Origin: a bacterium
Lineage (GTDB): Bacteria > Electryoneota > AABM5-125-24 > Hatepunaeales > Hatepunaeaceae
NCBI GenBank assembly: GCA_025774605.1
Contig: JALGVR010000014.1
Coordinates: 1 to 35,448 of the forward strand
Length of the DNA: 35,448 nt
Direction of reading: 5' to 3'
Part shown: one piece after another, positions 16,578-34,039 of the stretch
Layout of the letters: each line of letters opens with the position of its first letter
Numbering within the stretch: the first letter of the stretch is position 1
Notes under the pieces: generated by a model
The model's input: only the letters and a program-made list of their open reading frames with translations
Database searches by the model: none
Told to the model about the DNA's origin: nothing
Translations under genes and position numbers: made by a program

Positions 16578-17429
16578 TCAGTTGCGCGGGATGATCAGAA
16601 TCTGCTCCGGGTAAATCAGATTCGGATCCTGAATTATCGTCTTGTTTGCCTGGTAGATCTTCGTCCACTGGAACGGGTCACCGTAAACTTGAGCGTAACC
16701 GGCGATCTTGCGCAGGAAATCGCCCCGCATCACCAGATGTTCGTCACGACCTATCTGGCGCGGGATGCGAAGAGCCTGATCAGGATAAATGAGATCCGGA
16801 TCCTTGATCTCGTCTCGATTGGCGCTGTAGATCCGCATCCATTTCCAAGGATCGTTGAATATCTCGGCCCTGCCGGATATCTTCCAGAGATAATCGCCGC
16901 GTAAAACATGGTATATATCGTGCTTGGGTTTGGGAAGAGACCGTTTCAGGGCTTCGACCCTTGTTGCCAGCCGACTCAACCGCTCGCGAGGTTCACTCAA
17001 CAGAGCTATCGGATGAGATTGCATCTCCTTGATTTCATCGCCCAGACCGTCAAGTTCCGCTGTCTGATCAAGAAGCATGTCCGGTGACAGCCTTGCCAAC
17101 TGGTTGACCCGGTTCTCAAGCTTGCCGATCGCCTCCAAAAACGCCTTAATATCAGCCTCCGTCGCGCCGAGCAAGGCATAGATTTCGTCCCACGTCGCCT
17201 TGATCTGGGCTTCGATCTCCGCGATCCTGGCGTGCAGATCATCAATCGCTGCACGCTCCTGTGCGATCGCTTCGAGAGCACTCCCCTCACGATCCTGATA
17301 CTTCTGAAGTTGTATCTGATATTCTTCGAAGGTCATCCGATCAGCAGCGACAGTACTTCCGGGAGTGAAGACCAGCGACGCAGTCAGGGCGGAAAGGAGG
17401 ATCAAACCGATATGTGTCGATTTACTCAT
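16578..17429 (-). CDS. Exported coiled-coil protein with two LysM-type repeats
   Basis: A 283-residue protein. The signal peptide is at residues 1-29 (STHIGLILLSALTASLVFTPGSTVAA). A helical coiled-coil segment spans about 35-150. Two LysM-like repeats end the protein: HVLRGDYLWKISGRAEIF...DPDLIYPDQALRIPR and VMRGDFLRKIAGYAQVYG...DPNLIYPEQILIIPR. LysM modules bind peptidoglycan, so it probably acts in the periplasm on or near the cell wall. The ATG at 17429 has GGAGGAG at good spacing and overlaps the lipoprotein stop by 8 bases. The pair is presumably translated together and may interact through their coiled coils. Confidence 0.85.
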   Translation of the reverse strand: MSKSTHIGLILLSALTASLVFTPGSTVAADRMTFEEYQIQLQKYQDREGSALEAIAQERAAIDDLHARIAEIEAQIKATWDEIYALLGATEADIKAFLEAIGKLENRVNQLARLSPDMLLDQTAELDGLGDEIKEMQSHPIALLSEPRERLSRLATRVEALKRSLPKPKHDIYHVLRGDYLWKISGRAEIFNDPWKWMRIYSANRDEIKDPDLIYPDQALRIPRQIGRDEHLVMRGDFLRKIAGYAQVYGDPFQWTKIYQANKTIIQDPNLIYPEQILIIPRN

Positions 17430-17715
17430 GCGGCTCCTCCTCCCGTGTCTCCGGCAGATGCGTTTTGACATACTTCAACTCATCCTGGACGGATTTCAGC
17501 TCGGCTTCCTTCTCAGCCACCGCCTGCTCGACCTGCTTGTGTTCAACCTTGATCTTGTCGAGCTCCTTCTCCGCAGAGATCGCAGCCTTGCGAGCCTCCT
17601 CCAACTGTTGAAGATCATCCTGACTGGCATACTTGGTACAACCAACCGACATTAACAGCCCGGCGGTAAAAACCATAGCCACCACCACGGCGGTTACCCT
17701 CCGCGGTATGATCAT
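17422..17715 (-). CDS. Small coiled-coil lipoprotein
   Basis: A 97-residue lipoprotein. The signal sequence ends in a lipobox LMSVGC, with cysteine about residue 26 for lipid attachment. The rest (QDDLQQLEEARKAAISAEKELDK and further heptads) is a single charged coiled coil with an acidic end. It resembles in layout the murein lipoprotein and other small coiled-coil envelope lipoproteins but shows no specific family match. The ATG at 17715 has an AGGAGG site; a reading from 17754 lacks one. It is first in a two-gene unit with the LysM protein and has a good promoter upstream. Confidence 0.8.
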   Translation of the reverse strand: MIIPRRVTAVVVAMVFTAGLLMSVGCTKYASQDDLQQLEEARKAAISAEKELDKIKVEHKQVEQAVAEKEAELKSVQDELKYVKTHLPETREEEPHE

Positions 17716-17756
17716 GAAACCTCCTGTAAATTGATTGGACTTCTTAAATATCATCG

Positions 17757-19747: not shown

Positions 19748-20773
19748 TCACTCAAAGATAAAGGTCGCCCCCGCCGTAACATTACCGTCTGCTTCATCAA
19801 TAGGATCGAAGCGCCACTGCCCGATGATGTTCTTGATACATCTCTCCATGTCTCTCTTAAGAGGATTACGTCCCCAATTGCTCTTGCGGAAACGCACCCT
19901 TATAACCTCACCGGTCGGGTTGATGGTAAATTCGACCACTACCTGACCTTTCAAGCTGGAATCGCGCCGCTTGTATGTCCAGTAACAGTACTGAATCTGA
20001 TTCCTGTTGGCAAGAACAACCTGCGAAATAGCCTTCTGACTGCGCTGTCGTTTCTTTGATCCCTTACCCCTGGCGGTAATGGCTTTCCGGGATAACTTGA
20101 TGGGAGCCTCATTGAGCATCGCTTTCAGGTTTCCGGGATCAGCCAGAAAGCCCTTTAGATCGGCGATGTCCAGATTGCCGACGTCCTCGGATATTGCGCC
20201 GCCTCCCCGCAGTTTCTTGACCTTACTGGCAGTCTCTGCATCGCCGATGATCGCCAGCGCGCCCTTCAGGTCGGCGCCACCACCGCCACCTGCATCGGAC
20301 AACCCGACGGCAGCCCTGACGGAAGCGCCGCTCCTGCGTCCTGTGCGACCGCGCACCGTTGGACCGGCAAGCACCTTCAGTCTCTCCGCAATCGCCTTGC
20401 GTCTCGCCTCTGCCCTCGCTGATCGCGCCGCCTTGGCTTGTTCGCGCGCCGCCTTCTTGTCCTCGGCGCTCAACTCCTTGGGCGCCTCCTCTTCAGCAGC
20501 CGCTTCCTCGGGAACTTCCGCCGCAACCTCCGCTCCACCCTTGTCGCTCACCTCAGCCACCACCGGAGCCTTCTGAATCTTGACCCGATAGATGGCCTCC
20601 ATGTATTTCTTCACCTCGTCGGCTTTAAGATCCCTGACCGGCAGGCTTTGCGCATAGAACGCCACTGCATTGAGAATAATGAACGTTAACAACCAGATCG
20701 ACATGAAACCGTAATCCATGTCGCGGAAGAAGTTCCTCTCAAATTTCTTGGGAAATGTCATAACCTGAGCCAT
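19748..20773 (-). CDS. AgmX/PglI-type TonB-like energy transducer
   Basis: A 341-residue bitopic protein. One membrane segment lies near the N-terminus (SIWLLTFIILNAVAFYAQS, about 25-43). A long periplasmic linker rich in A, E and K follows (about 75-145), then a conserved-looking middle part, and a TonB/AgmX C-terminal domain at 240-341. Its hallmarks are VVLANRNQIQYCYWTYKRRD, GQVVVEFTINPTGEVIRVRF and CIKNIIGQWRF. In Myxococcus, AgmX/GltJ and related PglI proteins work with TolQ/TolR-type motors in gliding. Here it is the last gene after TolQ and two ExbD genes. The ATG at 20773 has an AGAGG site. It likely links the inner-membrane motor to an outer-membrane or periplasmic partner. Confidence 0.8.
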   Translation of the reverse strand: MAQVMTFPKKFERNFFRDMDYGFMSIWLLTFIILNAVAFYAQSLPVRDLKADEVKKYMEAIYRVKIQKAPVVAEVSDKGGAEVAAEVPEEAAAEEEAPKELSAEDKKAAREQAKAARSARAEARRKAIAERLKVLAGPTVRGRTGRRSGASVRAAVGLSDAGGGGGADLKGALAIIGDAETASKVKKLRGGGAISEDVGNLDIADLKGFLADPGNLKAMLNEAPIKLSRKAITARGKGSKKRQRSQKAISQVVLANRNQIQYCYWTYKRRDSSLKGQVVVEFTINPTGEVIRVRFRKSNWGRNPLKRDMERCIKNIIGQWRFDPIDEADGNVTAGATFIFE

Positions 20774-20782
20774 TGAAACCTC

Positions 20783-21274
20783 TCAGGATGATTCTTGAAT
20801 GACAACAAAATCGAGGGTCGAATACTCCGTTTGACCACAAGTGTTGATCACCTTCAGCAGCCACTTGTACTCGACATCTTTATCACATTGGATAGTAACC
20901 TCGCCTTTGAACGGTACACCGGCCTTCTCCTTGAATTCACGCTGTGCGACCAGATAGGATTCCAGAGAGGGCAGAACCATTGCATCACTGTTCAACTCAT
21001 CAACACCTGCGATCACGCGCGGATTGGTCTCCATGTCCTCCTGCACACCGCCATCCTTGGTAACAAGGAGCGCCAGCGCCTTTTTCGGTTTCATGTCGCG
21101 ATCGGCAGTGGGCAGCACAAGACGGTCGGAAGGCTGGATCAACGCCCCGGAGGTGGACATGGACTTAAGAAGGAACAACAGAATGATGGTCATCATGTCC
21201 ATCATCGAATTCAAGCTGAGACCACCCTTTTCCTTCCTGGGGTTCTTCTTTGATTTAGAAGGCGCAAAAGCCAT
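20783..21274 (-). CDS. ExbD/TolR family protein, with conserved Asp
   Basis: A 163-residue protein with a cytoplasmic basic N-terminus, one membrane helix (SLNSMMDMMTIILLFLLKSM, about 20-39) and a periplasmic domain. The aspartate in MMDMM sits where ExbD and TolR carry the residue that takes up protons in the motor channel. The periplasmic part (TIQCDKDVEYKWLLKVINTCGQTEYSTLDFVV) fits the usual ExbD/TolR fold. It belongs with TolQ upstream and the paralogue between them. The ATG at 21274 has AAGGGA upstream. This form (MMDMMTIILxFLLKS) is the one found in deltaproteobacterial and FCB AgmX-associated clusters. Confidence 0.88.
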   Translation of the reverse strand: MAFAPSKSKKNPRKEKGGLSLNSMMDMMTIILLFLLKSMSTSGALIQPSDRLVLPTADRDMKPKKALALLVTKDGGVQEDMETNPRVIAGVDELNSDAMVLPSLESYLVAQREFKEKAGVPFKGEVTIQCDKDVEYKWLLKVINTCGQTEYSTLDFVVIQESS

Positions 21275-21326
21275 TTCTTAACATCCCTTCCAAAAGAGGT
21301 GTCGGTGAATCAACCTCAACAATGTG

Positions 21327-21944
21327 TTACTGGAATTGCTTCAACAAGGTAAGCGGGAAAAGCTCCCGCTTCTCGCCGTCGATTTCTTTGTACCTGCAAA
21401 CATCCATTACGTGGATAATGGTCTGGAACGGTATCGCATCCAGAGCCGTAATGGAGACCTCCCTGCCATCCTTTACCTTATAGGTGTTGAAAACCTCCCA
21501 TTGCATGGAATTCTCATTAAAAACGGAGTCCTTGCCGGTCGGTTCACCCACTTCGCGCACCTTGATGCTGTAAAGACTGTCGTTCAATGCTGCAAGATTG
21601 TATCCGCTGCCGGTGGAGGGTATCTCGTAAAAGAACTCACCTTCCTCAAGCTTTCCAAACATGCTGACTTGAATGATATTGTCATCAGAAAGGTTAACGA
21701 GAAGTCTCAGGTTTATATCCTTTTCCTCGTCAGGCGCCTGGTTCTGATCGTCTGCACCGGCGCCCGCGTCCTCCGCGGCTTCCGCCGGAGGCATATACTC
21801 AAGCAGCGCCAGTTTGGTGAATTCGGCGACAGACAGCAATAAGGGAATCAGGACGACCATCAAATTCATGATGGGGGTAAGGTTCAGCTCTGTTGTGCCC
21901 TCCGGTCGAGTACGACGCAGAGAGGGCATAAGCTTTCTAAACAC
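21327..21944 (-). CDS. ExbD/TolR-like protein lacking the conserved Asp
   Basis: A 205-residue ExbD-like protein. The membrane helix (ELNLTPIMNLMVVLIPLLLS, about 20-39) has Asn where ExbD/TolR proteins have the proton-binding Asp. A long acidic linker (AEDAGAGADDQNQAPDEEKD) leads to an enlarged periplasmic domain with the YNLAALNDSLYSIK and FQTIIHVMDVCRYKE segments of the fold. It probably forms a mixed dimer with the Asp-bearing paralogue. The start is a GTG at 21944, directly after the tolQ stop, with GGAG 8 bases upstream. The length is some 60 residues above the family norm. Confidence 0.85.
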   Translation of the reverse strand: MFRKLMPSLRRTRPEGTTELNLTPIMNLMVVLIPLLLSVAEFTKLALLEYMPPAEAAEDAGAGADDQNQAPDEEKDINLRLLVNLSDDNIIQVSMFGKLEEGEFFYEIPSTGSGYNLAALNDSLYSIKVREVGEPTGKDSVFNENSMQWEVFNTYKVKDGREVSITALDAIPFQTIIHVMDVCRYKEIDGEKRELFPLTLLKQFQ

Positions 21945-22589
21945 TTATCTGGCTCCGGTGAGCAGGTGAATCAGTTTTACCGAGTACTCATCGATGTCGT
22001 CTATGATAGCCTGGGTCTTATTCTGGATGAGTGTATACGAGAGCAGCGCCGGGATGGCGACAATCAAGCCGAACATTGTAGTGAACATGGCAATGGAAAT
22101 ACCCTGTGACAGGGCGGTTGCGCCGCCACCAGCCGCACCGGCGGCTTCGAATGATTGAATCAGACCAAAGATCGTCCCCAGCAGACCGGTCAAGGTGCCG
22201 ATGTTACCCAATTGCGCCAGCCAGTTCGTTCGTTTGTTCAACTTGGGCATGATCTCAAGCGACGCCTCATCAACTGCATTCTGCACGGAACGGAAGTCTA
22301 TCATCTCACTATGCTCCGCAACCGTCAGACATCTGAGTACAACCTGAGGAAGAGCCTTGTTACCGGCGGACTTACACAGCGCAATAGCCTTCTTGAAATC
22401 ACCGGCAGAGATCAACTTATGAATTTCCGCCCAGAAGCGCGGCGCGTTTATATTTGATCTCACCCAGATATAAATTGAGCGTTCGATGATAATGGCTATC
22501 ACGAGCACCAGAAAGAAAAGGATCAACCACATGAACCCGTAGCCGGGGCTATCCAAACTGAATTGGTGAAAGAACTTGGACCAATTCAA
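21945..22589 (-). CDS. MotA/TolQ/ExbB proton channel protein
   Basis: A 214-residue inner-membrane protein forming the stator-like proton channel with ExbD. The first helix is at about 18-38 (GFMWLILFFLVLVIAIIIERSIYI). The signature LAQLGNIGTLTGLLGTIFGL opens helix 2, and GISIAMFTTMFGLIVAIPALLSY forms helix 3, as in TolQ and ExbB. I place the start at a TTG at 22589, because GGAGG lies 5 bases upstream and a promoter lies at 22680-22708. A longer reading from a TTG at 22700 would overlap that promoter and adds sequence unlike the family. This is the first gene of the motor unit tolQ-exbD-exbD-agmX. Confidence 0.92.
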   Translation of the reverse strand: MNWSKFFHQFSLDSPGYGFMWLILFFLVLVIAIIIERSIYIWVRSNINAPRFWAEIHKLISAGDFKKAIALCKSAGNKALPQVVLRCLTVAEHSEMIDFRSVQNAVDEASLEIMPKLNKRTNWLAQLGNIGTLTGLLGTIFGLIQSFEAAGAAGGGATALSQGISIAMFTTMFGLIVAIPALLSYTLIQNKTQAIIDDIDEYSVKLIHLLTGAR

Positions 22590-22679
22590 CTTTTCCTCCG
22601 TATTTTGATTTACCCCTTCAACCGCCAATGGGCGGATAAGAATTTTACGAATGGAAAGTTCCTGCCTGCAGCAAGTCGA

Positions 22680-22708
22680 TTTATACTCGTAAGTTTCCAA
22701 CCTTACAA
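22680..22708 (-). promoter_or_regulatory. Promoter of the tolQ-exbD-exbD-agmX unit
   Basis: On the minus strand TTGTAA (22703-22708) and TATAAA (22680-22685) are separated by 17 bases, upstream of the TTG start at 22589. It gives the motor genes their own promoter in addition to read-through from the TPR genes. Confidence 0.5.
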
Positions 22709-22743
22709 GCAGTTACCGACAAATTGGAACGATCGTTCAAGAA

Positions 22744-22773
22744 ACTGAATTATATCGCTGAAATATAATCAGT
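22744..22773 (-). terminator. AT-rich hairpin at the end of the small secreted-protein gene
   Basis: ACTGAATTATAT (22744-22755) and ATATAATCAGT (22763-22773) pair with a one-base bulge, spanning the stop codon. On the minus strand only TTCTTG follows, so termination would be weak. It may partly uncouple the TPR genes from the motor genes. Confidence 0.4.
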
Positions 22774-23086
22774 GTTTCCTTGTTTTTGCAAGTATTTTCT
22801 TCGGTTTCTTAACCTTGCTGACCTCAATGTCAGCCAAACGAGGCTTGATCGACGTAGAGGCATTGAAGATCTTCCCCTCATCGGGGCGTTTCAGCTCGCC
22901 AATGTCGATCTCCGGCTGCTGACGGTTAATGGTTATAATCACATTCGGCAGCTCTGCTTCAAGCTTGATTCTAATCGCTTCCTCTACCATGATAACACCC
23001 TGGTCCTCCTGCGCGAACGCCGGTGCAACGGCGAGAAAGCTTAACAGAACAACCGGAAACAGACAGACGATCTTCTCCACCTTCAT
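22769..23086 (-). CDS. Small secreted protein of the envelope cluster
   Basis: A 105-residue exported protein without a recognised family. The signal peptide is EKIVCLFPVVLLSFLAVAPAFA, cleaved before QEDQG. The mature part has a strand-like piece (AELPNVIITINRQQPEIDIGEL) and a basic C-terminus (VSKVKKPKKILAKTRKH). The ATG at 23086 has GGAG at 8 bases; a start at 23095 is too close to that site. It begins inside the preceding stop region, so it is coupled to the galactose-binding-like protein. The basic tail could contact an acidic partner such as the C-terminus of the 902-residue TPR protein, which is speculation. Confidence 0.7.
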   Translation of the reverse strand: MKVEKIVCLFPVVLLSFLAVAPAFAQEDQGVIMVEEAIRIKLEAELPNVIITINRQQPEIDIGELKRPDEGKIFNASTSIKPRLADIEVSKVKKPKKILAKTRKH

Positions 23087-23091
23087 AATCA

Positions 23092-23856
23092 TCACTCCAG
23101 TTTGTTCTTCTCAATAACCCGCATATCACGCAACTCCCCGACCGACGGCGGTTCACGCCGGCTTTCACGCAACGCCTTGGCAGCCTCCTGCTGCCTGATG
23201 TGTTCCAACCGCCTCTCCTCCTGGGCATCGAGTTCTCTCTGTACGATCCTGTCAAGCTGCGTCTCTATCTCGGGAATTGTCTCGTAGGTCATGCCGAACA
23301 GAAGCCCGTGACGTGTATCATCGACGTCATCGACCTGGACGGCGATGATGTTCCTGCCGATAACCAGGTAGTCGCCGATATCGTGCTCCCTGATATTCAT
23401 CCAGTCCAATCCCTCGGTTTCGTCGGAAGCGATGTACTCGCCGTTCAAGTACAGGCTGTAATCATCATCTGCCGTCAGCCAGATCTTGCCGCCCGCGGGT
23501 GGGTCCTGAATCTCGAACGAACGCCGGAACCAGTATGTCCTGACGCCATCGGCATCGACCTCCATCCACCGGCGCCAAAGCGAGTCCGCGTATTCGGCGC
23601 GCTGCAGTGCGCTCGGCTCTCCGGTATCGACCGCATCCAGTTCCGTCACCTGTGAGCCCGCTTCGTTCGCCCCGGTCTCCTGTGCATAAACAGCCCCGCT
23701 CAAGGCGAGCAGGCAGATCAGCAGAAGATGGAACAGAGCGGTAAAATCGACCGCCCTCTTGTATCTGTTACGAAACAAATTATCCCCGGGATGTTCTGAA
23801 ACACGAAATCCTGCAGACGATTTCCTACTCATATCAGCCCGTCGATCAGCCGCCAT
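23092..23856 (-). CDS. Membrane-anchored or secreted protein with a galactose-binding-like domain
   Basis: A 254-residue protein. A basic N-terminus of about 38 residues precedes a hydrophobic segment (FTALFHLLLICLLALSGAVYA), a signal peptide or anchor. Residues 95-190 show a jelly-roll pattern: YWFRRSFEIQDPPAGGKIWLTADDDYSLYLNGEYI, later VIGRNIIAVQVDDV and GLLFGMTYE. This resembles galactose-binding-like modules of GH2-type and rhamnosidase enzymes, here without an enzyme domain. The C-terminus is a charged coiled coil (RELDAQEERRLEHIRQQEAAKALRE). The ATG at 23856 has AGGAG and overlaps the giant TPR gene by a few bases; a GTG at 23862 is possible. It might bind a glycan or another cluster protein. 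Confidence 0.7.
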   Translation of the reverse strand: MAADRRADMSRKSSAGFRVSEHPGDNLFRNRYKRAVDFTALFHLLLICLLALSGAVYAQETGANEAGSQVTELDAVDTGEPSALQRAEYADSLWRRWMEVDADGVRTYWFRRSFEIQDPPAGGKIWLTADDDYSLYLNGEYIASDETEGLDWMNIREHDIGDYLVIGRNIIAVQVDDVDDTRHGLLFGMTYETIPEIETQLDRIVQRELDAQEERRLEHIRQQEAAKALRESRREPPSVGELRDMRVIEKNKLE

Positions 23857-23858
23857 GG

Positions 23859-26800
23859 TCACTCTCCTGCAACTACATTGACGGTAACCGATCCTTCCAC
23901 CGTCTGATCATTGCTCTGGAGCAGGAAGTCGGCTTTATACACACCGGCATCCTCAGCGGTGGTCTGCCATGAGAAAACGCCGGAGCCGTCCCCCTGGTCG
24001 GTGAACGTAGCCGTCGCCGGCAGGTCGTCCGAACTGAAACTTACCGCCAGATCATCGCCGTCATAGTCCACCCCGAACACCGTGAATTCGATCAATGTGC
24101 CCGCGTTACCTGATATCTCCGGCGGAATCTCAATCCATTCAGGCGGTTGATCGACATTTTCGATGGTTATGGTTATCTCCCTGGTGATCTCAAACAGACC
24201 GTTGGACAGGGTGAACGAGGCGCTGTAATCCCCGGCGTCCAGATAGGTCGGCAGCCAACTGAATACGGCTGATCCGTCCAGATTGTCGATAAACCTCGCC
24301 GCTTCGGGCAGATCCGGAGAACTGAAGGTCAGCGATACATCGCCGCCCAGCGGATCGGCGCCGGAGACGGTGAACTCCATCTGCGAGTTCTCCTGTCCGG
24401 TAACGTCAGCGGGAGCGTCAATCCATTCCGGGGGACCTTCCTCCCTGGCCGTTACGCTTATCGGGACCGTTGCGGAGATGCTGAGCTGACCGTTTGACAG
24501 CGTAAAGTCGGCGTCGTAATCGCCCGCGTCATCGACGGTCGTCTGCCACGTGAACGCCCCTGAACCGTCTCCATGATCCTCGAACTGAGCCGATTCAGGG
24601 ATATTATCCGACGAATATCCAAGGGTGAGCACCTCGCCGCCGGGATTGGTTCCGGAAAGCGCAAATTCAATCAGGTCGCCTGCATCAGCCGAGACCTGCT
24701 CGGGAACATCAAGCCACTCCGGTGAAACCACCCGGCCGGTTACGGTGATCTGTACTGTCTTGTCAGTAGCGAGAACCCCGTTCGATATGGTAAACGTCGC
24801 CGCATATTCGCCCGCGTCAGCGTCGGTCGTCTGCCAGCTGAACGAACCCGAGCCGTCACCGAAATCCGTGAACTGGGCGGATCCGGGAAGGTCATCCGAA
24901 GCATATTCGATGGTGACCGCCCCTCCGGCGGGATCGGCTCCCGACATGGTGAATTCGACGACTGAACCGGCTTCTCCCGTTATATTGTCCGGTATATCCG
25001 TCCATTTCGGGGGTTGAGCCGCGCCGCCGATGGTGATGGGCACCTCGCCTATGATGGTGGTATCCCGGTCGGACAGCGCAAAGGATGCGATGTAGGCTCC
25101 CGCGTCGCCCTGTTCAGTCGGCCAGATAAATTGACCGCTGCCGTCACCGGCGTCGCTGAACTCGACCACATCCTCAGGTATATCCTCGGAGAAATAGGTT
25201 ATGGTTAACGCCTTTCCATCGGGATGCATGCCGGCAACCGTGAATTCAACCGGATCACCCTCTTCGACATCGATCCGTTCGGGCAGATCCACCCAGCGGG
25301 GCGCGCGTACCGCATCCTCAACCCTTATCGGGATCTCGAGGCTTACCGAGGTGTCAACGTTGGTCAATTCAAGAACCAGGTTATATGATCCTGAATCCTC
25401 AAACGTGGTCTCCCAGTAGAATGTTCCCGTTCCGTCCCCCTGATCCGTGAACCGGGCTGATTCGGGCAGATCGATCGACTGGTCGGACAACGCCGGCGGC
25501 AGTCCGTCGGGGGATGACGCGGTTACCGTGAATTCAATCACCGACCCTTCAACGGTGTTGATCTCACCGGGATAATCGATCCAGCGCGGGGAACGAACGG
25601 CGTTCTCGATCCTGATCGGAATATCGAGCGCCAGCACGGTGTCGCCGTCGCTCAGCTCGAAAGACGCCGTGTACGAGCCTGAATCATCGTAACTGGTCTC
25701 CCAGGTGAACTGACCCGAATCGTCACCGTTGTCGACAAAATCAGCGGTCCCGGGAATATCGAACGAACTGTACGTAATCGTCAGAGGATCACCATCTGGG
25801 TCTTCACCGGCAACCCTGAAACTGACAGTCAAGCCCTCTTCAGAATCGATTCGCTGCGGGAATTCGATCCAGTTGAACCCCCTATCGACATCCCCGACCG
25901 TAATCGGCACTTCGATCGCCACCGGTATATCGTAGTTATAGAGCGTGAATCGGGCTGTATATTCGCCTTGTGCGGAGAAGGAAGGCGTCCAGGAGAAGGT
26001 GCCCGTGCCATCGCCGTGATCGGAGAATACGGCATCTCCGGGCAAATCATCAGACGAATATTCTATCCTCAGCTGCGGCGGCGGGGCGCTCGGTTTCTCA
26101 GCCTCAGGATAGGACGGTTCGGTTGTCGGAGTCTCCGGTGTTTCAATGACCTGTCCCGCTTCACCTTCCTCCGTCGCCGCCCCTTCCAGTCCCTCGCCGC
26201 CCGCTTCCAAGGTGGTATCCTCCACCCCGGGAGCCTTCCTTTCGGGGGCGACGCCAGCGACTGTGAATTCGATCAACTCGCCTTCCAAACCACTCACTTC
26301 CTCAGGATATTCGCGCCATTGCGGCAGCGCCGGCGGGGCTTTGAGCTCAAACCAGATCGCCGTTGCGCCCAGACTGTCAAGTACGCCGAAGTCAGTACCG
26401 GCGGGGAAGGAGGAGACCCGGGCATGCTCCCAGTTGGAATCGTCGAAGTCGGCCGTCTCAAAGTCAGTCTCGTATTCGGGCCATATCAACCAGTCCGTCG
26501 AGCTGGTGATGGTGAAGTACTGCGGCTCGATACCAACTTTTGAAGCATACACATCCGGTTGAAGCTTAACCAGTTTACGCAGGATATTTATTCCCGCCAT
26601 ACCGGGCAGCTCATATCTGTCCCGCAGGTTCAGGCCCTCTTCGAGCAAGCCGACTCCGTAGTCGGTACAGGTAATCGCGATATCCTCGAACGATGCCGCT
26701 GCATCGTTGTACCAGTATCTTTCAACCTCCTCCTCAATCTCATCGTCCCAGTAATAGCCGTTTTCCTCGTATTCGCGCGCATATTCCTCGCTCTTTTCCC

Positions 26801-29800
26801 TGGCTTTCCGCGAATATTCATCGAATCGATCGTACTGTTCAAGGATATATTCGAGCGGTTTTTCAAGAGCCCGGTCGCCGAAACCGATCGGACGATCATA
26901 CTGGACAACTGTATCCAGCAGTGTTGAAAAGGCGTTCAGCTTGTCGAGATTGTGGACGTTCAGGTAGTCTATCCATGTCAGGATAATGGAGCCCATCATG
27001 TCGGGCAGGAAACCTTCCCTCGATTCTGCGGTTTCACCCTTGGGCAGCATCTCGCTGTATTCCTCTATGTATCCATCGATCTTGGAGATTGATACCGTGA
27101 ATTGATTGTCCCATTGTGCAAGCAGTGTATCGATTGCGTGCGTAAACCGCTCTTCGAGGTAGGAATTCCAGTAATCCACGTTGACGCCCGTTTCCGCGAC
27201 GGTTCCCAGCGCCTGGAGATATAAACCGCATACCTCAGGCGCCAGGGGTGTGAGGATGTTCTTCAGGATTTCCTCCTGGAAGAGAAGCCTGATCTCCGGT
27301 ATCCTCTCAGGATTCTCCCAGGCAAACTTCGCTTCATAGGAGCGCAGCAGGTAATCACCGTTCCGAACGGCAATCTCGGGAATCTTGTCCCGGCAGGCAT
27401 CAGCCCATTTACGGGCTTCAAAGCGCGAGGAATCCAATTCGGCAAGCGTTTCATCCATTATAGTCAGCCGTTTGGTGGAATCAGCCAGCATGGTCGCTAC
27501 GGAATCGGATTGCCCGGCCGCGGAAGTATCCGACTGCGTATCGCGGACCCAGTTCTTCAGTCGATCGCGCACCAAGCTGGTCGAATCGCGCAGCTCAATC
27601 AGCTCCTTTTCAATCCTGTCGAGTTGAGTGTAGCCATCCTTGTATTGAAGCAGGGTTGCCTGATTGAGGATAATCGCCTCATCAACCACCTGATCCAACG
27701 CTTCAAAACGCTTTTCCTGCTCGGGGAAGTAGGGGATCGCCTGTTCAAAGGTGGCGACAGCCTGCTCCTCGACAAGCCTGCCGATCTCGTAGAATGCCTG
27801 CCAGGCTTCCTTCTGGCTTAACTGGATCAAGCGCCGGTACTTGGCGATCAACGAATCGCGCCACTCACGCTTTCGAACCCGGGCGGTCGTGTCCCCGGCG
27901 ACCGTGAAGCGAAGCTTGTCGTATTCCTCATGCTCCCACTCCAGCAACCTGGACAACGCCTTCGCCGCATAGTTCGGCGCGCCAACGCCACCGGCGGCAA
28001 CCTGCCTGTCGTTGGCATCCACCGCCTGCCTGAACTCCTGCGCCGCCAGGGATTGTTCATTGTGGGTGAGATAGTAACTGCCGCGCTCGAAATACGCGCG
28101 GATCGTTCTCGGATCGTCGGGATATTTCTCGGCAAACCTCAGGTATATCTTGTTCGCCTGTTCGAGGTCGTCCAGTTTCAGATAATGTCCCGCCATTTCG
28201 AACAGGTAGATATCGGCTTCCGGATCATCCGGATAGAGCGAGAGGAATTTTTCATTCACCCTGATAACGCTTAGATGATCGTCAACCTTGTTGTAATTAA
28301 TACTGGCGTTCGCCAACGCATCCTGAACCAGCTCGGAATTTGGGTACTCCTCCGCCAACCTCTCGAATACAGCCGCCGCCTGATCGAGCTGGCCGAGTTC
28401 GTTCTGGAAGTTGTAGGCGGTGTTCATGAGTGCCTTGTCGGCCCGCCCCGATTCGGGGTAGCGCTCGACCAGCATCAGGTAGGCTTCATTGGATTTCTCG
28501 AAGGCTTCGCCCTTGGCGTATTCCTGCCCCGCCTGGAAAAGCGCCCGGTCCGCTTCGTCCCAGTCAGGCGTAGCCAGCGCAACCCGCATGAACTCATCAG
28601 CGGCTCCGACATGATCATCCTGCTGCTGCATGGCGGCTGCGTTGCGGAAGATGGCGACAGCCTTGCGCTTGTACGCAGCCTGCTTGAGTTCATCCGATAC
28701 ATCGGCGGCCTCGATGCGGGCGGCTACATCCTCAACACCTTCCATGTCTACCATGCGGAAGTAGCCGTCCAGCAGTGCCGTGTAAGCGCTTTCGAAAAAC
28801 TTCGTCTTGGGGAATTCAGCGATCAACTTCTCGAAATACTGTCGCGATTCAACGATCCAGTCGTGTTCATATAGGAAATTACCGGCGGTGTACAGGATGA
28901 TTTCCCGCAGTTTGCCCTCGGGGAAATTGGCATCGTACAGGTCAAAAGCGGAGAGTTCGAGCTTCTCCGAATTCAACAGCGGGGTGCGTTTCACATCGGG
29001 CGTCATACTCATTCCCCCCGCTGCCGCAGTGTCCGTGACAACGGTATCCGGCTCCGTATATCCGATCGGTTTCTCGGGAGCCGCTTCCGGCGGCAAAATT
29101 TCAGCCTGGTCGGAAACGTAGATCAGACCTTCCTTCTCCTTCCTGGCAAAATCCATGGCGATGAGCACAACCGTCTCGCAGGCAACCTCCATATCCTCCT
29201 TATTCGTATAGGACATCGCCACCTGCCAGTACTCGCGCATCGCTTCCATCGGGCGATTCAATTTGTTGTACAGAATCCAGGCGAGGTTGGAGTGGATTGC
29301 GTAGGCATTCGGTCCGTTGGGCCAGAAACGCAGGTATTGTCGCGCGTACTGAACGGACTTCTCGAGCTTCTCGATGTTGTTCTCGTTGTAGCCTTCCGTT
29401 GTAAACCGGTCGATAATCAGGTCAAGATAGCTCTCCAGAAACGGCACCACTTCATTTCTGACCCGCGGATCGTCGTTTGCCGCCCACCACTCGCTGTCGG
29501 GGTTGTACGTATCGTAAAACTTTATCGGTTCTTCAACCATCCTGGCTGAATCTTTTATCTGTTCGGTAAGGAACACCTGCACTATTTTCCGCTGGACAAC
29601 CGCCGCACGCGGCTCAAGCGGGAATATCTCGATGAATTTCTCATAGACCTCGACGCCTTCAGCATATTGACCGCGTCCGGCGGTGTAAATATCCCCCAGG
29701 GTTATGAGAATATCCGCTCCGTAATTCCGCATCCGGTCGGGATTATCCTCCAACCACGCCTCCAGTCCATCCACACCGGAATTCTGCCATTCCTGCTTGT

Positions 29801-30968
29801 TCACCGAGAAGCAGATCCCCAGATAGCGTAAAGCATCCGGTGAAAAATCCTTGACGGTTGTCTTTTCAAGCTTGGTGCCGTCAGCAGCGTAATCGGTGTC
29901 CAGGGTTTTTGCGAAATACTCAACTGCCGTCGGTATCTTGCTGATGCGATAATAGGACCAGCCGAGGTGATAGATGGCTTCAACGCAAAAGGGTGTGTTG
30001 GGATAATCCCGGGCGATCCTGGTGAAAACCTCGATTGCCTTCTCGATCTCGTTGACCGGAGGGTTGAAATAATACTCCCCGATCCTGCGCAGGGCGTTCA
30101 GCGTATATTTGTTGCCCGGGTAATGCGTGACAAGGGTTTCGAGGTACTGGTTGGACGTCTGCTTATCAAGCGGATCATTGGACTCGGAACGCAGCAGGGC
30201 GATGTTGTACAGCGCGTCGACGCCGAACTGCGTGTCGGGGAACTCGTCGATGATATGCTGATACATCTCCAGTACCTGACTGACGTCCTTCACCGGTTCA
30301 GGCAATGCCGCAGCGGCGTCGGAATCGGTTTTTGCCAGCTCCATCTTGCGATCAAGCTGATCGTAGAATTCGTCTTCAGCCTCCTGGAGCATCAACTCGG
30401 CAAGCCGGAAGTACAGATCGGCGATTACGGCGCGTTTGTGAGGGTTCTGGCGGTATGCCGGATTGGTGAGATGTTCGTTCAGCCGCTTTTTACCGAGCTC
30501 AATCATCTTCCTGCGGTCGGCTCGGATGTCCTCCTTCAACTGGTCTTTTTCCGCGAAGTAACTATCGCGGAGAGCCTCAAGCTGCGCGTCATCGGTAGTG
30601 CTGATAACCGCCGCCATCTCGATGCGGTCCAACAGATCGACCAGTTTATTCAACGTTCCTACGTATACGGGATAGCTTGGATCACCCGGCTTCGGCGGTT
30701 CGCCGCCTACCACTTCAACGAGCTTTCCCAACTGATACAGGACCCGCTTCCCCTCGACAAGATAACCGCCGATATTGCTGGTGTCCGGTTGCGAGAGCAG
30801 ACTTAACCAGCGCCCGCGCAGGTCCTCCGGCAACAGATCCACAGGGTCGGTTTTTTGCTTGGAGCCGAACAGATCAATCGCCCTCGACTGCACCGGCACA
30901 AGCAACACAATCAGCGCCAGTAGACAGATCAGACTGATTGTATATTTAATCTTCACGTGAACGTTCAA
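23859..30968 (-). CDS. Giant exported TPR protein with eight C-terminal Ig-like repeats
   Basis: A protein of up to 2369 residues. A signal peptide is at the N-terminus (YTISLICLLALIVLLVPVQSRA). TPR-like helix pairs fill about 100-1050, with tol-pal/YbgF-like pieces (DALYNIALLRSESND, PNTPFCVEAIYHLGWSYYR, YPESGRADKALMNTAYNFQNELG). A helical region reaches about 1470, then a short galactose-binding-like piece (ADFDDSNWEHARVSSFPAG). From residue 1549 there are eight Ig/cadherin-like repeats of about 95 residues, each opening PPxWxDxPxxI and carrying DLPxxAxFxDxGDGSGxFxW. The first repeat has an acidic, proline-rich insert of about 60 residues. The start may be TTG 30968 or GTG 30956. It follows the other TPR gene by 24 bases. 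It likely scaffolds a periplasm- or surface-spanning complex. Confidence 0.85.
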   Translation of the reverse strand: MNVHVKIKYTISLICLLALIVLLVPVQSRAIDLFGSKQKTDPVDLLPEDLRGRWLSLLSQPDTSNIGGYLVEGKRVLYQLGKLVEVVGGEPPKPGDPSYPVYVGTLNKLVDLLDRIEMAAVISTTDDAQLEALRDSYFAEKDQLKEDIRADRRKMIELGKKRLNEHLTNPAYRQNPHKRAVIADLYFRLAELMLQEAEDEFYDQLDRKMELAKTDSDAAAALPEPVKDVSQVLEMYQHIIDEFPDTQFGVDALYNIALLRSESNDPLDKQTSNQYLETLVTHYPGNKYTLNALRRIGEYYFNPPVNEIEKAIEVFTRIARDYPNTPFCVEAIYHLGWSYYRISKIPTAVEYFAKTLDTDYAADGTKLEKTTVKDFSPDALRYLGICFSVNKQEWQNSGVDGLEAWLEDNPDRMRNYGADILITLGDIYTAGRGQYAEGVEVYEKFIEIFPLEPRAAVVQRKIVQVFLTEQIKDSARMVEEPIKFYDTYNPDSEWWAANDDPRVRNEVVPFLESYLDLIIDRFTTEGYNENNIEKLEKSVQYARQYLRFWPNGPNAYAIHSNLAWILYNKLNRPMEAMREYWQVAMSYTNKEDMEVACETVVLIAMDFARKEKEGLIYVSDQAEILPPEAAPEKPIGYTEPDTVVTDTAAAGGMSMTPDVKRTPLLNSEKLELSAFDLYDANFPEGKLREIILYTAGNFLYEHDWIVESRQYFEKLIAEFPKTKFFESAYTALLDGYFRMVDMEGVEDVAARIEAADVSDELKQAAYKRKAVAIFRNAAAMQQQDDHVGAADEFMRVALATPDWDEADRALFQAGQEYAKGEAFEKSNEAYLMLVERYPESGRADKALMNTAYNFQNELGQLDQAAAVFERLAEEYPNSELVQDALANASINYNKVDDHLSVIRVNEKFLSLYPDDPEADIYLFEMAGHYLKLDDLEQANKIYLRFAEKYPDDPRTIRAYFERGSYYLTHNEQSLAAQEFRQAVDANDRQVAAGGVGAPNYAAKALSRLLEWEHEEYDKLRFTVAGDTTARVRKREWRDSLIAKYRRLIQLSQKEAWQAFYEIGRLVEEQAVATFEQAIPYFPEQEKRFEALDQVVDEAIILNQATLLQYKDGYTQLDRIEKELIELRDSTSLVRDRLKNWVRDTQSDTSAAGQSDSVATMLADSTKRLTIMDETLAELDSSRFEARKWADACRDKIPEIAVRNGDYLLRSYEAKFAWENPERIPEIRLLFQEEILKNILTPLAPEVCGLYLQALGTVAETGVNVDYWNSYLEERFTHAIDTLLAQWDNQFTVSISKIDGYIEEYSEMLPKGETAESREGFLPDMMGSIILTWIDYLNVHNLDKLNAFSTLLDTVVQYDRPIGFGDRALEKPLEYILEQYDRFDEYSRKAREKSEEYAREYEENGYYWDDEIEEEVERYWYNDAAASFEDIAITCTDYGVGLLEEGLNLRDRYELPGMAGINILRKLVKLQPDVYASKVGIEPQYFTITSSTDWLIWPEYETDFETADFDDSNWEHARVSSFPAGTDFGVLDSLGATAIWFELKAPPALPQWREYPEEVSGLEGELIEFTVAGVAPERKAPGVEDTTLEAGGEGLEGAATEEGEAGQVIETPETPTTEPSYPEAEKPSAPPPQLRIEYSSDDLPGDAVFSDHGDGTGTFSWTPSFSAQGEYTARFTLYNYDIPVAIEVPITVGDVDRGFNWIEFPQRIDSEEGLTVSFRVAGEDPDGDPLTITYSSFDIPGTADFVDNGDDSGQFTWETSYDDSGSYTASFELSDGDTVLALDIPIRIENAVRSPRWIDYPGEINTVEGSVIEFTVTASSPDGLPPALSDQSIDLPESARFTDQGDGTGTFYWETTFEDSGSYNLVLELTNVDTSVSLEIPIRVEDAVRAPRWVDLPERIDVEEGDPVEFTVAGMHPDGKALTITYFSEDIPEDVVEFSDAGDGSGQFIWPTEQGDAGAYIASFALSDRDTTIIGEVPITIGGAAQPPKWTDIPDNITGEAGSVVEFTMSGADPAGGAVTIEYASDDLPGSAQFTDFGDGSGSFSWQTTDADAGEYAATFTISNGVLATDKTVQITVTGRVVSPEWLDVPEQVSADAGDLIEFALSGTNPGGEVLTLGYSSDNIPESAQFEDHGDGSGAFTWQTTVDDAGDYDADFTLSNGQLSISATVPISVTAREEGPPEWIDAPADVTGQENSQMEFTVSGADPLGGDVSLTFSSPDLPEAARFIDNLDGSAVFSWLPTYLDAGDYSASFTLSNGLFEITREITITIENVDQPPEWIEIPPEISGNAGTLIEFTVFGVDYDGDDLAVSFSSDDLPATATFTDQGDGSGVFSWQTTAEDAGVYKADFLLQSNDQTVEGSVTVNVVAGE

Positions 30969-30992
30969 ACCACGCCCATTCCACTGGTTTGA

Positions 30993-33701
30993 TCAATTAT
31001 CATTGCTGCCTGCCGGGTTTTCATTCCTGGTCGGCGGCTGTTTCCTGCCGGTGGTATCCGCTGCTGACTCCTCCCGCTCCAATTCAACGGGAGTCTGAGC
31101 CTGACCCTCCAAGACGGGCGACTCTTCCACAGTTTCCTTAACGGTTTCACCTGCACTCTGCTCATCGGCAGCACCGGTATCGGACTTTACATCATCTTCC
31201 GTCGATGATTCGCCTTCGGGCGTTTCATCTCCCGCGGGTGTCTCCTCAACTCCCTCGTTGGCGGGCTTCGGCTGCCCGGGTATCTCCCCGGCAGGTTGCT
31301 CGGATCCGCCGCCAACATCTCCGGTCTCCGGAGTGGTTCCCCCGCCGGGAACCGTTTCCGGCGGATTTTCCGGTTGTTCCCCGGGCGACTCTTCCGGCAG
31401 CGGTTCCCCGGCTGTGGAGTCGCTTTCCGTCACCGTCGTATCAGTGGTCACCGGTCTATATTCCTTTGGCTGCCAGAGCGGTATCGGCGGAGCGTAATAG
31501 GGCTCGTCACCCGGTTCACTTGCCAGAGCCAGGGAGTCGGGCAGCTCGGCGATCTCCTCCTCGACGGCGTGTCGTTCCGCCAGGATATTGTTGATTCTGC
31601 TGATATACTGATCGAGTTCTTTCAGTCGGTTTTCCCTCATATACAGATAGTCAAAGGCCAGACCGGCTGTTGAATGACGTTGATAGGCGAACCAGCTCCA
31701 GTGGTCCAGGTTGCTGGTTATATCAACCTGTTTGAAGCTGTTCAGGTTTCTGCTCACCGCCATCAGCCGGACCTGGAGATTCATCATCCCCAGCTCGATC
31801 TCACCCAAATCGACCAAGAGCGCCTCATCCCCCACCGATTCGGCTTCCGATATCAGCGTCCTGACCTTCTCAAGGGCATCCTCCGATGCCTTCCATTCCT
31901 GGTCGAACCGGATCTTCAGTGAATCGACAAACCTCGCCTGAAACAGTTGCTCCTGCTCACGATGAACAAGGGACTTCTGTTGCATCTGGTAACGGAATCC
32001 CGATTTCAGGTCATTGGCCAAATCCAGCAGTTTGGCATACAGCTTGTCATACTTTGACAGAAGCCTCGCATCCTGGGTGGCGAACAGCTCCTTCTCGATC
32101 CCCTTTAGCTCATCGAATAACCGGTACAGTTCATTCTGCTCGTCCAACATCTCCATAATGACCGGCGAAGACATAACACCCTCAGCCAGTTTCAGTCGCT
32201 CGAAGATCGATTTCAGCTTTATCCTCAGCCTGTTGTAACGATCGAAAAGCTCACGGCGACCCTCCAGGAACAGGTCCGGCTCCAGGCGTTGTAATTCACC
32301 GATCGCACTCGAGACGTTATGCTTCTCAAAATCAGCCTCCTTGAATTCCCGCCGTTCATCAACCGCCGTCATGACCTTTTCATATTCACTCTTTGCATCC
32401 TCACCCCGTCCGATAACCTCCTGGCTGTAACCCAGCAGACAGAACACCTCATAGAAATACTGCGATTTTGGAAACTCCTCGAGAAACTCATTGCACAGCT
32501 CAATCACCGCGCCGTAATCGTGAACCCGGAAGAGAGACCAGGCCGCGATCAGACTGGCTTTCTCCGCCATCTCGCCCTTGAACTTGGTCATGCTCAATTT
32601 ATCATAAGCATCGTAATATCGTCCGCTGAGATAATCTATATAGCCCAATTTGAGCATCGCTTCCCACTTGATCTCCTTCGTCAGCCCCTTGCCTTTCAAC
32701 TTGCCTTCAGCGATCTCCATGTACCGGTGTTCAGCATCCACAAGGTCGAGCATCCCCAGCGCACAATCAGCCGCGCGGAGTTTTGCGACAATGTACAGCT
32801 CTGTCTTGGGGCGTATTTGATCCAGCAATTCCTGTGCTTCGGCCCATTCCTGAAGGGACATCAGGAAACGAGCCGTCAATTCGGCCGTATGCCAGTACGA
32901 CTCGTCAGCCTGCCCGCCGGTCAGCTCACTGTATCTCATCCATGAATTCCTCAAACCGCGCAGATCACCGTTGTTGCCGGCAATGGCGATGAGCCTCTCC
33001 AGCGTCCGCCGTTTTAACTCAACGTCATCGGAATGCTTAAGCACGTAATCGTAATCCTCCCCGGCGCGGTCATACATCGTCACCTTGAAGAACGATTCAC
33101 CACGGAGGAAAACAATGTCAGCCAGATCCTCATATCCATAGCGTTCCTTCAATTCGGTAAAGCGGAGAATTGCCTGATGGTAATTGGAGTTCCTGTAGGA
33201 TTCCAGCGCGGATTTCAGGTCGGTGTTGAACATCCGTCTGCGCTGCTCATCGGTGGCGCTGCTCAGCAGCCTGTCCTTGATCTGCCGCGCCTGGGTGTAC
33301 TTTTGAACGTACTTCTCACGCTGCAACTTCTCCCAGGTTTGGTACTTAATGCGCGGAGGAGCTTCAGCCAGGTCTGACGGAAAAACATAGGAAGAATCAT
33401 CGAAGGTGGCTGGATCAAGCGGTGCGAACGCATCGCGGGTACCGTTCAAATCCTCCCTGCGGCGCTTTTTGGCTTCACTGGTAATCCCCTCATAGAGCCA
33501 GATCAGGAAGGATTCGTACTGGAAAACCTCCGCTTCAAAATCCAGACCGCGCTGAAAGAGGAAGAGATTTGCCTGCGCTTGATAGCTCTTATCAAGTGAA
33601 GTCTCGTTCCGGGTGTTGATCTGGGCTGACAGCGGTGCGGGGTATAACAACAACAGAATCGTCAGAACAAGCAGATCAGTCGCCAGGCGCCTAATCGACA
33701 T
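30993..33701 (-). CDS. Exported TPR/coiled-coil protein with acidic low-complexity tail
   Basis: A 902-residue protein. Signal peptide at residues 1-27 (LATDLLVLTILLLLYPAPLSAQ). TPR-like helices occupy about 150-480 (FTELKERYGYEDLADIVFLRGESFFK, FPKSQYFYEVFCLLGYSQEVIGRGEDAKSEY in two parts). A long coiled-coil region covers about 490-720. The last 160 residues are rich in P, E, T, G and S with few hydrophobics, and are probably disordered and flexible. The ATG at 33701 gives a clean signal peptide; a GTG at 33764 would add 21 residues ahead of it. It is the first gene of the envelope cluster, downstream of a strong promoter and a leader of about 300 bases. Confidence 0.82.
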   Translation of the reverse strand: MSIRRLATDLLVLTILLLLYPAPLSAQINTRNETSLDKSYQAQANLFLFQRGLDFEAEVFQYESFLIWLYEGITSEAKKRRREDLNGTRDAFAPLDPATFDDSSYVFPSDLAEAPPRIKYQTWEKLQREKYVQKYTQARQIKDRLLSSATDEQRRRMFNTDLKSALESYRNSNYHQAILRFTELKERYGYEDLADIVFLRGESFFKVTMYDRAGEDYDYVLKHSDDVELKRRTLERLIAIAGNNGDLRGLRNSWMRYSELTGGQADESYWHTAELTARFLMSLQEWAEAQELLDQIRPKTELYIVAKLRAADCALGMLDLVDAEHRYMEIAEGKLKGKGLTKEIKWEAMLKLGYIDYLSGRYYDAYDKLSMTKFKGEMAEKASLIAAWSLFRVHDYGAVIELCNEFLEEFPKSQYFYEVFCLLGYSQEVIGRGEDAKSEYEKVMTAVDERREFKEADFEKHNVSSAIGELQRLEPDLFLEGRRELFDRYNRLRIKLKSIFERLKLAEGVMSSPVIMEMLDEQNELYRLFDELKGIEKELFATQDARLLSKYDKLYAKLLDLANDLKSGFRYQMQQKSLVHREQEQLFQARFVDSLKIRFDQEWKASEDALEKVRTLISEAESVGDEALLVDLGEIELGMMNLQVRLMAVSRNLNSFKQVDITSNLDHWSWFAYQRHSTAGLAFDYLYMRENRLKELDQYISRINNILAERHAVEEEIAELPDSLALASEPGDEPYYAPPIPLWQPKEYRPVTTDTTVTESDSTAGEPLPEESPGEQPENPPETVPGGGTTPETGDVGGGSEQPAGEIPGQPKPANEGVEETPAGDETPEGESSTEDDVKSDTGAADEQSAGETVKETVEESPVLEGQAQTPVELEREESAADTTGRKQPPTRNENPAGSNDN

Positions 33702-34010
33702 ACTACTATTCCGGGTTATATGGTTGCGAAAAACCGGATTTTTATAATATAACGTAATTCTCACCTGATTTTTACAGTTATCTCAATTTAATAACAGTCA
33801 TAATAAATAAAATGCCAGACAAACGTCTGACATAACTCACTGATCAAGGCTCCCCCACGGGATCACTACAAAGCAGAGATTCCCGATTACGATTTCAGAA
33901 ATGCTCGAAACCGGCGAGGTTTTATTGTTGCTATAACGATAGTTAAACAAAAGCGTATACTATCTTGATCCGTTCTGAAAAAGTACGCTGAAAGTACTAT
34001 TCAATAGTGG
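33702..34010 (-). ncRNA. Long structured leader or small RNA upstream of the TPR operon
   Basis: The promoter at 34011-34039 predicts a transcript start near 34004, about 300 bases before the first gene. I see no coding region in the leader. It has a short stem (AGTAC/GTACT) followed by T residues near 33977-33996, a TGATC/GATCA stem near 33841-33866 and a 9-base-pair hairpin with a T-rich tail at 33801-33833. A stop at the last hairpin would give an RNA of about 190-200 bases. I recognise no known riboswitch, T-box or 6S RNA motif. Confidence 0.4.
33801..33833 (-). terminator. Terminator-like hairpin inside the TPR operon leader
   Basis: Arms 33812-33820 and 33825-33833 form a 9-base-pair stem (one G-T pair) with a four-base loop. 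On the minus strand TTTATTTATTA follows (33801-33811). It may end a small RNA or act as an attenuator before the TPR genes. Confidence 0.5.
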
Positions 34011-34020
34011 AGTATACGCT
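33952..34020. promoter_or_regulatory. Inverted 10-base sites flanking the transcript start
   Basis: AGCGTATACT occurs on the plus strand at 33952-33961 and inverted at 34011-34020, a perfect match. Centres are 59 bases apart. The right-hand copy overlaps the -10 box. Two operator half-sites for a DNA-looping or cooperative regulator are possible. Confidence 0.45.
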
Positions 34021-34039
34021 CATTTTATCAAAATGTCAA
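34011..34039 (-). promoter_or_regulatory. Near-consensus sigma-70 promoter of the TPR/Ig envelope cluster
   Basis: On the minus strand TTGACA (34034-34039) and TATACT (34011-34016) are separated by exactly 17 bases. The spacer holds the small palindrome CATTTT/AAAATG. It begins about 29 bases after the atpC stop and points to the TPR genes. Confidence 0.8.

Follow-up and report, generated by a model that had tools for sequence, protein, structure and literature searches.

The eight co-directional genes described here very probably encode a proton-driven force machine that spans the envelope, a divergent form of the Agl-Glt "core complex" acquired by vertical descent. They lie on the minus strand, from position 33764 down to position 19748, in a 35,448-nucleotide stretch of DNA (hereafter the window) that represents contig 74 of a MAG of 2.83 Mb and 93% completeness. 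The Agl-Glt core has been known outside of the gliding bacteria since 2011, with no function assigned to it. Its wide vertical presence in the FCB lineages, together with its retention in genomes devoid of Tol-Pal, now points to a function for this core that is both concrete and testable.

The cluster is flanked by atpD-atpC on one side and by aspS on the other, and its genes are separated by short gaps or overlap by four nucleotides. In order of transcription, the products are a 923-residue exported TPR/coiled-coil protein (TPR923, 30993 to 33764), a 2369-residue exported protein with TPR and Ig-like repeats (TPR2369, 23859 to 30968), a 256-residue exported protein (23092 to 23862), a 108-residue secreted protein (22769 to 23095), a TolQ/AglR-type proton channel (21945 to 22700), two TolR/ExbD homologues referred to as ExbD1 (21327 to 21944) and ExbD2 (20783 to 21274), and a force transducer of the AgmX/GltG type (19748 to 20773). 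The four-nucleotide overlaps connect the gene for the 256-residue protein with those on either side of it. Family searches matched TolQ to MotA/ExbB (PF01618, 4.5e-24), ExbD1 and ExbD2 to ExbD (PF02472, 4.1e-7 and 1.3e-13, respectively), and the cluster also yielded TPR_6 (6.5e-24) and Ig-like (2.4e-12) domains. Together with the profile matches and signal peptides discussed below, these searches bear out the gene content and close spacing given in a preliminary description of the locus. Its upstream border at position 34039, on the other hand, falls in the non-coding gap before atpC; the first open reading frame begins at 33764, and the more likely start is at about 33701, which yields a signal peptide ending in PAPLSAQ. 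The TolQ reading frame is likewise extended at its 5' end, with the true start at about 22622. The 108-residue protein carries a signal peptide and has orthologues at the equivalent position in Electryoneota and in Calditrichota/KSB1. It is possibly the product of the unnamed extra gene noted by Luciano in 2011 (PMC3169522).

The family search gave only weak YfiO/YbgF TPR matches for TPR923. The proteins of the window's phylum were therefore turned into profiles and set against the three TPR proteins encoded in 12 deltaproteobacterial-type clusters, in two of which NCBIfam recognizes GltC, GltE, and GltG homologues. TPR2369 matched the GltD-like profile at 2e-112 with a score of 1019, and nearly the whole of its TPR portion was covered; the GltD-like reference is a TPR protein of 1100 to 1300 residues, so named on the basis of its size, place, and TPR content. 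TPR923 matched the GltC-like profile at 3e-33 with a score of 288. Cross pairings, by comparison, scored from 103 to 134, with a range of 113 to 133 for the pairings set against the GltC match of TPR923. One of the GltC-like reference proteins matches the NF033756 GltC model at 4.9e-14, and TPR923 itself gave no direct match to that model. On the basis of these profiles, TPR2369 is assigned as a GltD homologue and TPR923 as a GltC homologue, both well above the generic TPR background. The giant Ig-repeat subunit, for which the preliminary description knew of no Glt or Nfs counterpart, thus finds one in GltD. No gene was seen at the place of GltE in the window or elsewhere in its phylum, and GltE is found in the deltaproteobacterial clusters (1.4e-25 and 6.7e-32).

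The transducer contains an AgmX/PglI C-terminal domain (NF033768, 7.5e-20) and a partial match to GltG (NF033760, 5.1e-14) that lies below the equivalog cut-off and spans the region from the transmembrane helix to the end of the protein. The helix is formed by residues 21 to 43 and is followed by a glycine-rich disordered linker and the C-terminal domain. An AF2 model of the window protein was good for the C-terminal domain only (pTM 0.44), and the top PDB matches for that domain were TonB C-terminal domains; a Pfam search of the protein showed no domain at all, and hence no vWA domain. The cytoplasmic FHA region of GltG is absent given that a transmembrane helix at residues 21 to 43 leaves no room for it. 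In most of the deltaproteobacterial homologues, the helix lies at about residues 143 to 227. The TonB-like head might be taken as a sign that the cluster is one more TonB system, serving the uptake of nutrients. This reading, which we regard as highly improbable, was rejected because the genome contains two other TolQ-ExbD-TonB_C loci. Moreover, the cluster has no TonB-dependent receptor, and a different role is indicated by its TPR scaffold, by the presence of two ExbDs, and by its homology to GltG and GltD.

The overall layout of TPR2369 is characterized by a region of GltD homology at residues 1 to about 1440, the first half of a further domain at residues 1485 to 1545 or thereabouts, and eight Ig-like repeats of about 96 residues each. 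The 256-residue product, previously described as a galactose-binding-like protein, aligns to the C-terminus of fused orthologues and is merely the second half of that domain, followed by a conserved C-terminal tail ending in RDMRVIEKNKLE. Where the Ig repeats are lacking, as in the relatives G001, G004, and G007, in members of other families, and in Calditrichota/KSB1, the large protein ends in one complete domain. The AF2 model of such a fused orthologue from the KSB1-like locus L075 (pLDDT 80, pTM 0.69) is a jelly roll, for which Foldseek returned the sugar-binding domains at the N-termini of GH2 enzymes (2.1e-7, probability 1.00). In this model a disordered linker separates the first strands from the rest of the domain, and it is at this linker that the split occurs. 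In the window genome and in G002, G003, G006, and G008, a gene of its own encodes the second half as an exported protein, and the Ig repeats occupy the linker position in the first four of these genomes, the G008 locus being truncated where its contig ends. Fission of the gene at the linker, accompanied by expansion of the Ig repeats, is the most economical explanation. The two halves would be expected to pair again, and the resulting GH2-type domain is predicted to bind sugar. The Ig array itself was considered as a part of the core machine and rejected, for it is an insertion particular to one lineage, confined to part of a single family, and is missing from relatives.

Sequence alignments provide a distinctive picture of the motor. 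The two pore threonines of TolQ are kept without exception in the 104 aligned sequences, which include five controls or phylum-genome duplicates. The glutamate of the third transmembrane helix is replaced in about 95 or 96 of these 104 sequences; the cluster TolQs of this alignment (A1) lack it, and it is present in the Tol/Ton TolQ paralogues of the same phylum. At the proton-carrying position, ExbD2 has an aspartate (Asp 26 in the window) in 100 of 101 homologues. At the aligned position, ExbD1 has an asparagine (Asn 27 in the window) in 83 of 99, with aspartate in nine, serine in six, and alanine in one; a few loci in these ExbD sets come from the same genomes. Aspartate occupies this site in each of six ExbD/TolR proteins from Tol and Ton systems, taken as controls from the window genome and others of its phylum. 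A review from 2022 states that in Myxococcus both AglQ and AglS are predicted to carry the aspartate and that it is unknown whether they form homodimers or a heterodimer (PMC9389320). The asymmetry of the two ExbDs, as read from these alignments, is new here.

Because ExbD1 has asparagine at this position and ExbD2 keeps the aspartate, the two likely pair as a heterodimer, giving an axle that has a single site for protons. An in-frame TolQ::ExbD1 fusion in a Chitinivibrionales MAG (L082, 10775 to 12091), which lies beside separate tolQ and exbD2 genes, is compatible with a mixed assembly in which the motor holds one ExbD1. The asymmetry predicts an obligatory TolR-type heterodimer, and the system provides a natural experiment on the number of proton sites required by a 5:2 motor. 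In the proposed mechanism, a TolQ/AglR pentamer would enclose the ExbD1/ExbD2 axle, with the protonatable aspartate only on ExbD2, and proton flow would drive the axle. Force would then pass to the transducer, by way of its transmembrane helix, flexible linker, and TonB-like head, and from there to the GltC/GltD TPR scaffold on the outer membrane side. In Myxococcus, AglR is known to bind GltG, and the motor needs both the proton motive force and the aspartate of AglQ (PMC3169522, PMC3858216). The scaffold would end in the GH2-type sugar-binding domain at or near the outer membrane, to which the window's subfamily adds a long Ig-repeat arm.

The cluster is by no means confined to the window genome. 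A genome of the same family, G006, includes the contig of Candidatus Hatepunaea meridiana (L035 is identical to a portion of L062), an organism assigned by NCBI to Candidatus Electryoneota within the FCB group, so that the window's organism is placed in that family as well. In a search of 39 genomes of the phylum, a TolQ orthologue with 47 to 79% identity was found in 23, with scores of at least 156 bits for the cluster TolQs versus at most 89 for others, and the gene order was kept in all 23 as far as the contigs reach. In a wider survey, named genomes were scanned and genes were then called with profiles made for the purpose; the gene calls for the GC-rich deltaproteobacterial loci are rough. 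Six core genes were seen to follow one another in the same order in Calditrichota, KSB1, Latescibacterota, Nitrospirota, Nitrospinota, Myxococcota, Pseudomonadota, and further groups. Adjacency of the TPR and motor genes in this genome alone, the finding named at the outset as one that would count against a common machine, is thus contradicted, and chance adjacency is ruled out by an order kept across the phylum and beyond. The same survey, combined with the GltC/GltD profiles, the GltG/AgmX models, and the TonB C-terminal fold, upholds the relationship to Agl-Glt and Nfs that had been proposed.

The genomic context is shared as well. The cluster precedes aspS in the Electryoneota families f1 (that of the window), f2, f4, f5, and f7 and in most of the Calditrichota/KSB1 loci, and the opposite flank is often atpD-atpC. 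Past aspS lie genes for a small coiled-coil lipoprotein (17422 to 17754, minus strand, in the window) and a twin-LysM, peptidoglycan-binding protein (16578 to 17471, minus strand; PF01476, 4e-11), followed by phoH; the lipoprotein and LysM genes are neighbors of the cluster and are syntenic in most of the genomes that carry it. Most f3 genomes have phoH next after aspS and have lost the cluster, lipoprotein, and LysM genes. In the cluster-less f4 genomes, the aspS-lipoprotein-LysM arrangement is still there. As judged from gene order, both arrangements are footprints of cluster loss.

In a quick TolQ tree, which was calculated without M. xanthus AglR, the sequences from the phylum form one group joined by those of Calditrichota/KSB1, Latescibacterota, and a Chitinivibrionales MAG (SH-aLRT 94). 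The cluster TolQs fall on one side and 12 Tol/Ton-type paralogues on the other, with a split support of 68. This grouping suggests old vertical inheritance in the FCB lineages. Luciano inferred a transfer from Deltaproteobacteria to Fibrobacter on the basis of the few genomes of that time (PMC3169522), and the present tree, with modest support, does not favor such a transfer. The MAG titles of L067, L075, L079, and L080 (Actinomycetota or Bacteroidota, for example) look mislabeled, in that their TolQs group with KSB1/Calditrichota-like or other FCB sequences. Additionally, KSB1/Calditrichota were seen to possess another type of this cluster (L103, L104, L120, L126, L128, L135, and L140), which is smaller and whose transducer has a long cytoplasmic region, and one genome carries both types (L074 and L128).

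The distribution of Tol-Pal was scored with TIGR02800 for TolB and TIGR02802 for Pal, both of which gave bimodal scores; these models were relied upon because PF04052, the TolB N-domain, is too insensitive in this phylum. Neither protein was found by profile search in any of the nine genomes of the window's family or in G012 and G017 (79 and 77% complete, respectively). For the window genome, the best TolB match was that of a generic propeller (2.6e-19), and Pal gave no match at 1e-15. Every other genome of the phylum has at least one strong TolB or Pal match; G032 has TolB without Pal, its contig C46 ending there, and G016 has Pal without a clear TolB. Two TolB matches examined in full belong to tolQ-tolR-tolA-tolB-pal operons, and TolQ/ExbD neighbors accompany the majority of the remaining TolB loci. 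All 16 cluster-less genomes have Tol-Pal, and none in the phylum lacks both systems (Fisher p = 0.0009, with descent ignored); 12 of its genomes have both, and genomes without either exist outside of the phylum. In a species tree based on a single gene, AspS, family f1, with the cluster and without Tol-Pal, is sister to f3 plus f8, with Tol-Pal and without the cluster, and f5 plus f7 form a separate cluster-only branch. Retention of the cluster in lineages without Tol-Pal, and the reverse in the sister clade, is likewise new here. Since there are two independent contrasts only, the pattern is suggestive and not significant after correction for descent.

Outside of the phylum, TolB and Pal at true-member levels are lacking from all but one of 16 genomes of the Calditrichota/KSB1 type that carry this kind of cluster (15 of 16), completeness not being given for these genomes; the exception has both. 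The deltaproteobacterial, Nitrospirota, and second-type KSB1 clusters occur mostly alongside Tol-Pal, and M. xanthus has both a Glt-type cluster and Tol-Pal (PMC3169522). The machine is therefore not a simple Tol-Pal substitute, as both systems are found in 12 genomes of the phylum and in most of those from Deltaproteobacteria and Nitrospirota. The loss pattern nevertheless allows the tentative proposal that the Glt-type machine replaces or covers a Tol-Pal-like maintenance of the outer membrane. A broader reading, that an ancestral FCB envelope machine took over this maintenance after the loss of Tol-Pal and works with an obligate heterodimeric, one-site axle, as opposed to the two-site MotAB, ExbBD, and TolQR, is offered as a conjecture.

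With respect to output, the envelope-spanning, proton-driven motor and scaffold of the preliminary description hold; its list of motility, export, and adhesion is incomplete because it omits the Tol-Pal-like role suggested by the phylogenetic pattern. The likeliest output would be the pulling or remodeling of a glycan layer linked to the outer membrane or to peptidoglycan, which in the window's lineage may cover part of the missing Tol-Pal work. A less probable alternative is a gliding or surface-transport motor similar to Agl-Glt or Nfs that moves adhesins or polysaccharides, with the Ig arm and sugar-binding domain gripping slime or substrate. The homology to the gliding/Nfs core, the sugar-binding fold and Ig repeats, and the handling of surface polysaccharides by Nfs and Glt (PMC3858216) agree with it. 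None of the myxobacterial group A gliding proteins (GltA, B, F, H, I, J, and K), however, nor MglA/AglZ, was seen at the locus, and the FHA domain of GltG is missing. Furthermore, Luciano showed in 2011 that motility is not driven by the core on its own, which was also found in non-gliders (PMC3169522), and a housekeeping role agrees better with the wide vertical retention of the cluster beside genes of that kind.

It could also be argued that the cluster is the missing type IX secretion motor of this phylum, given that SprA is present in nearly all of its genomes and that GldM gave no match in 61 genomes, in a search without a responding positive control. Most of the 16 cluster-less genomes still have SprA, however, and for that reason this was rejected as the main role and is considered most unlikely. 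The window also encodes, at 4032 to 4865 on the minus strand, a secreted protein with a T9SS/FlgD-like sorting tail.

Among known systems, the vWA force transducer clusters of PVC bacteria (TPR, tolQ, two tolR, vWA) share with the window the combination of TPR proteins, TolQ, and an unlike TolR pair (PMC12204202), but the window's transducer is of the AgmX/GltG type with a TonB-like head in place of a vWA domain. Tol-Pal has in common with the cluster a TolQ/TolR-type motor powered by the proton motive force, a TonB/TolA-like transducer, and a TPR protein, and the presence of the two in the phylum is partly complementary. The cluster differs in having two ExbDs, in lacking TolB and Pal, and in the placement of its TolQ in a separate clade.

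The order TPR, TPR, unknown, TolQ, ExbD, ExbD, TonB-like is shared with FSU_2396-2403 of Fibrobacter succinogenes, a likeness drawn from locus numbers and product names, not from sequence (PMC6851124, PMC4619616). That operon differs by an adjoining OmpA gene and by having no Ig array reported. Its proteins are up on cellulose, and a TPR protein occurs in an outer membrane complex with cellulases; a role in the anchoring or working of surface polymer-degrading enzyme complexes has been proposed for it (PMC6851124, PMC4619616). The window genome also has SprA and the T9SS-type tail protein, which would be in keeping with such a role, yet SprA occurs in cluster-less genomes as well, and we regard this alternative, too, as rather unlikely.

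The closest relationship is to the Agl-Glt/Nfs core (AglR, AglQ, AglS, GltC, GltD, GltE, and GltG; PMC3169522), compared here through deltaproteobacterial homologues, with the M. xanthus protein sizes and domains taken from Table 1 of Luciano 2011. In the window, GltE is lacking at the locus, the transducer has no cytoplasmic FHA region, and ExbD1 carries an asparagine; GltD bears the GH2-type sugar-binding domain, split and with the Ig array, and the context is that of atpDC and aspS. What the two systems share, in a single cluster, is a TolQ, two unlike ExbDs, a GltG-type transducer, and the GltC/GltD TPR proteins.
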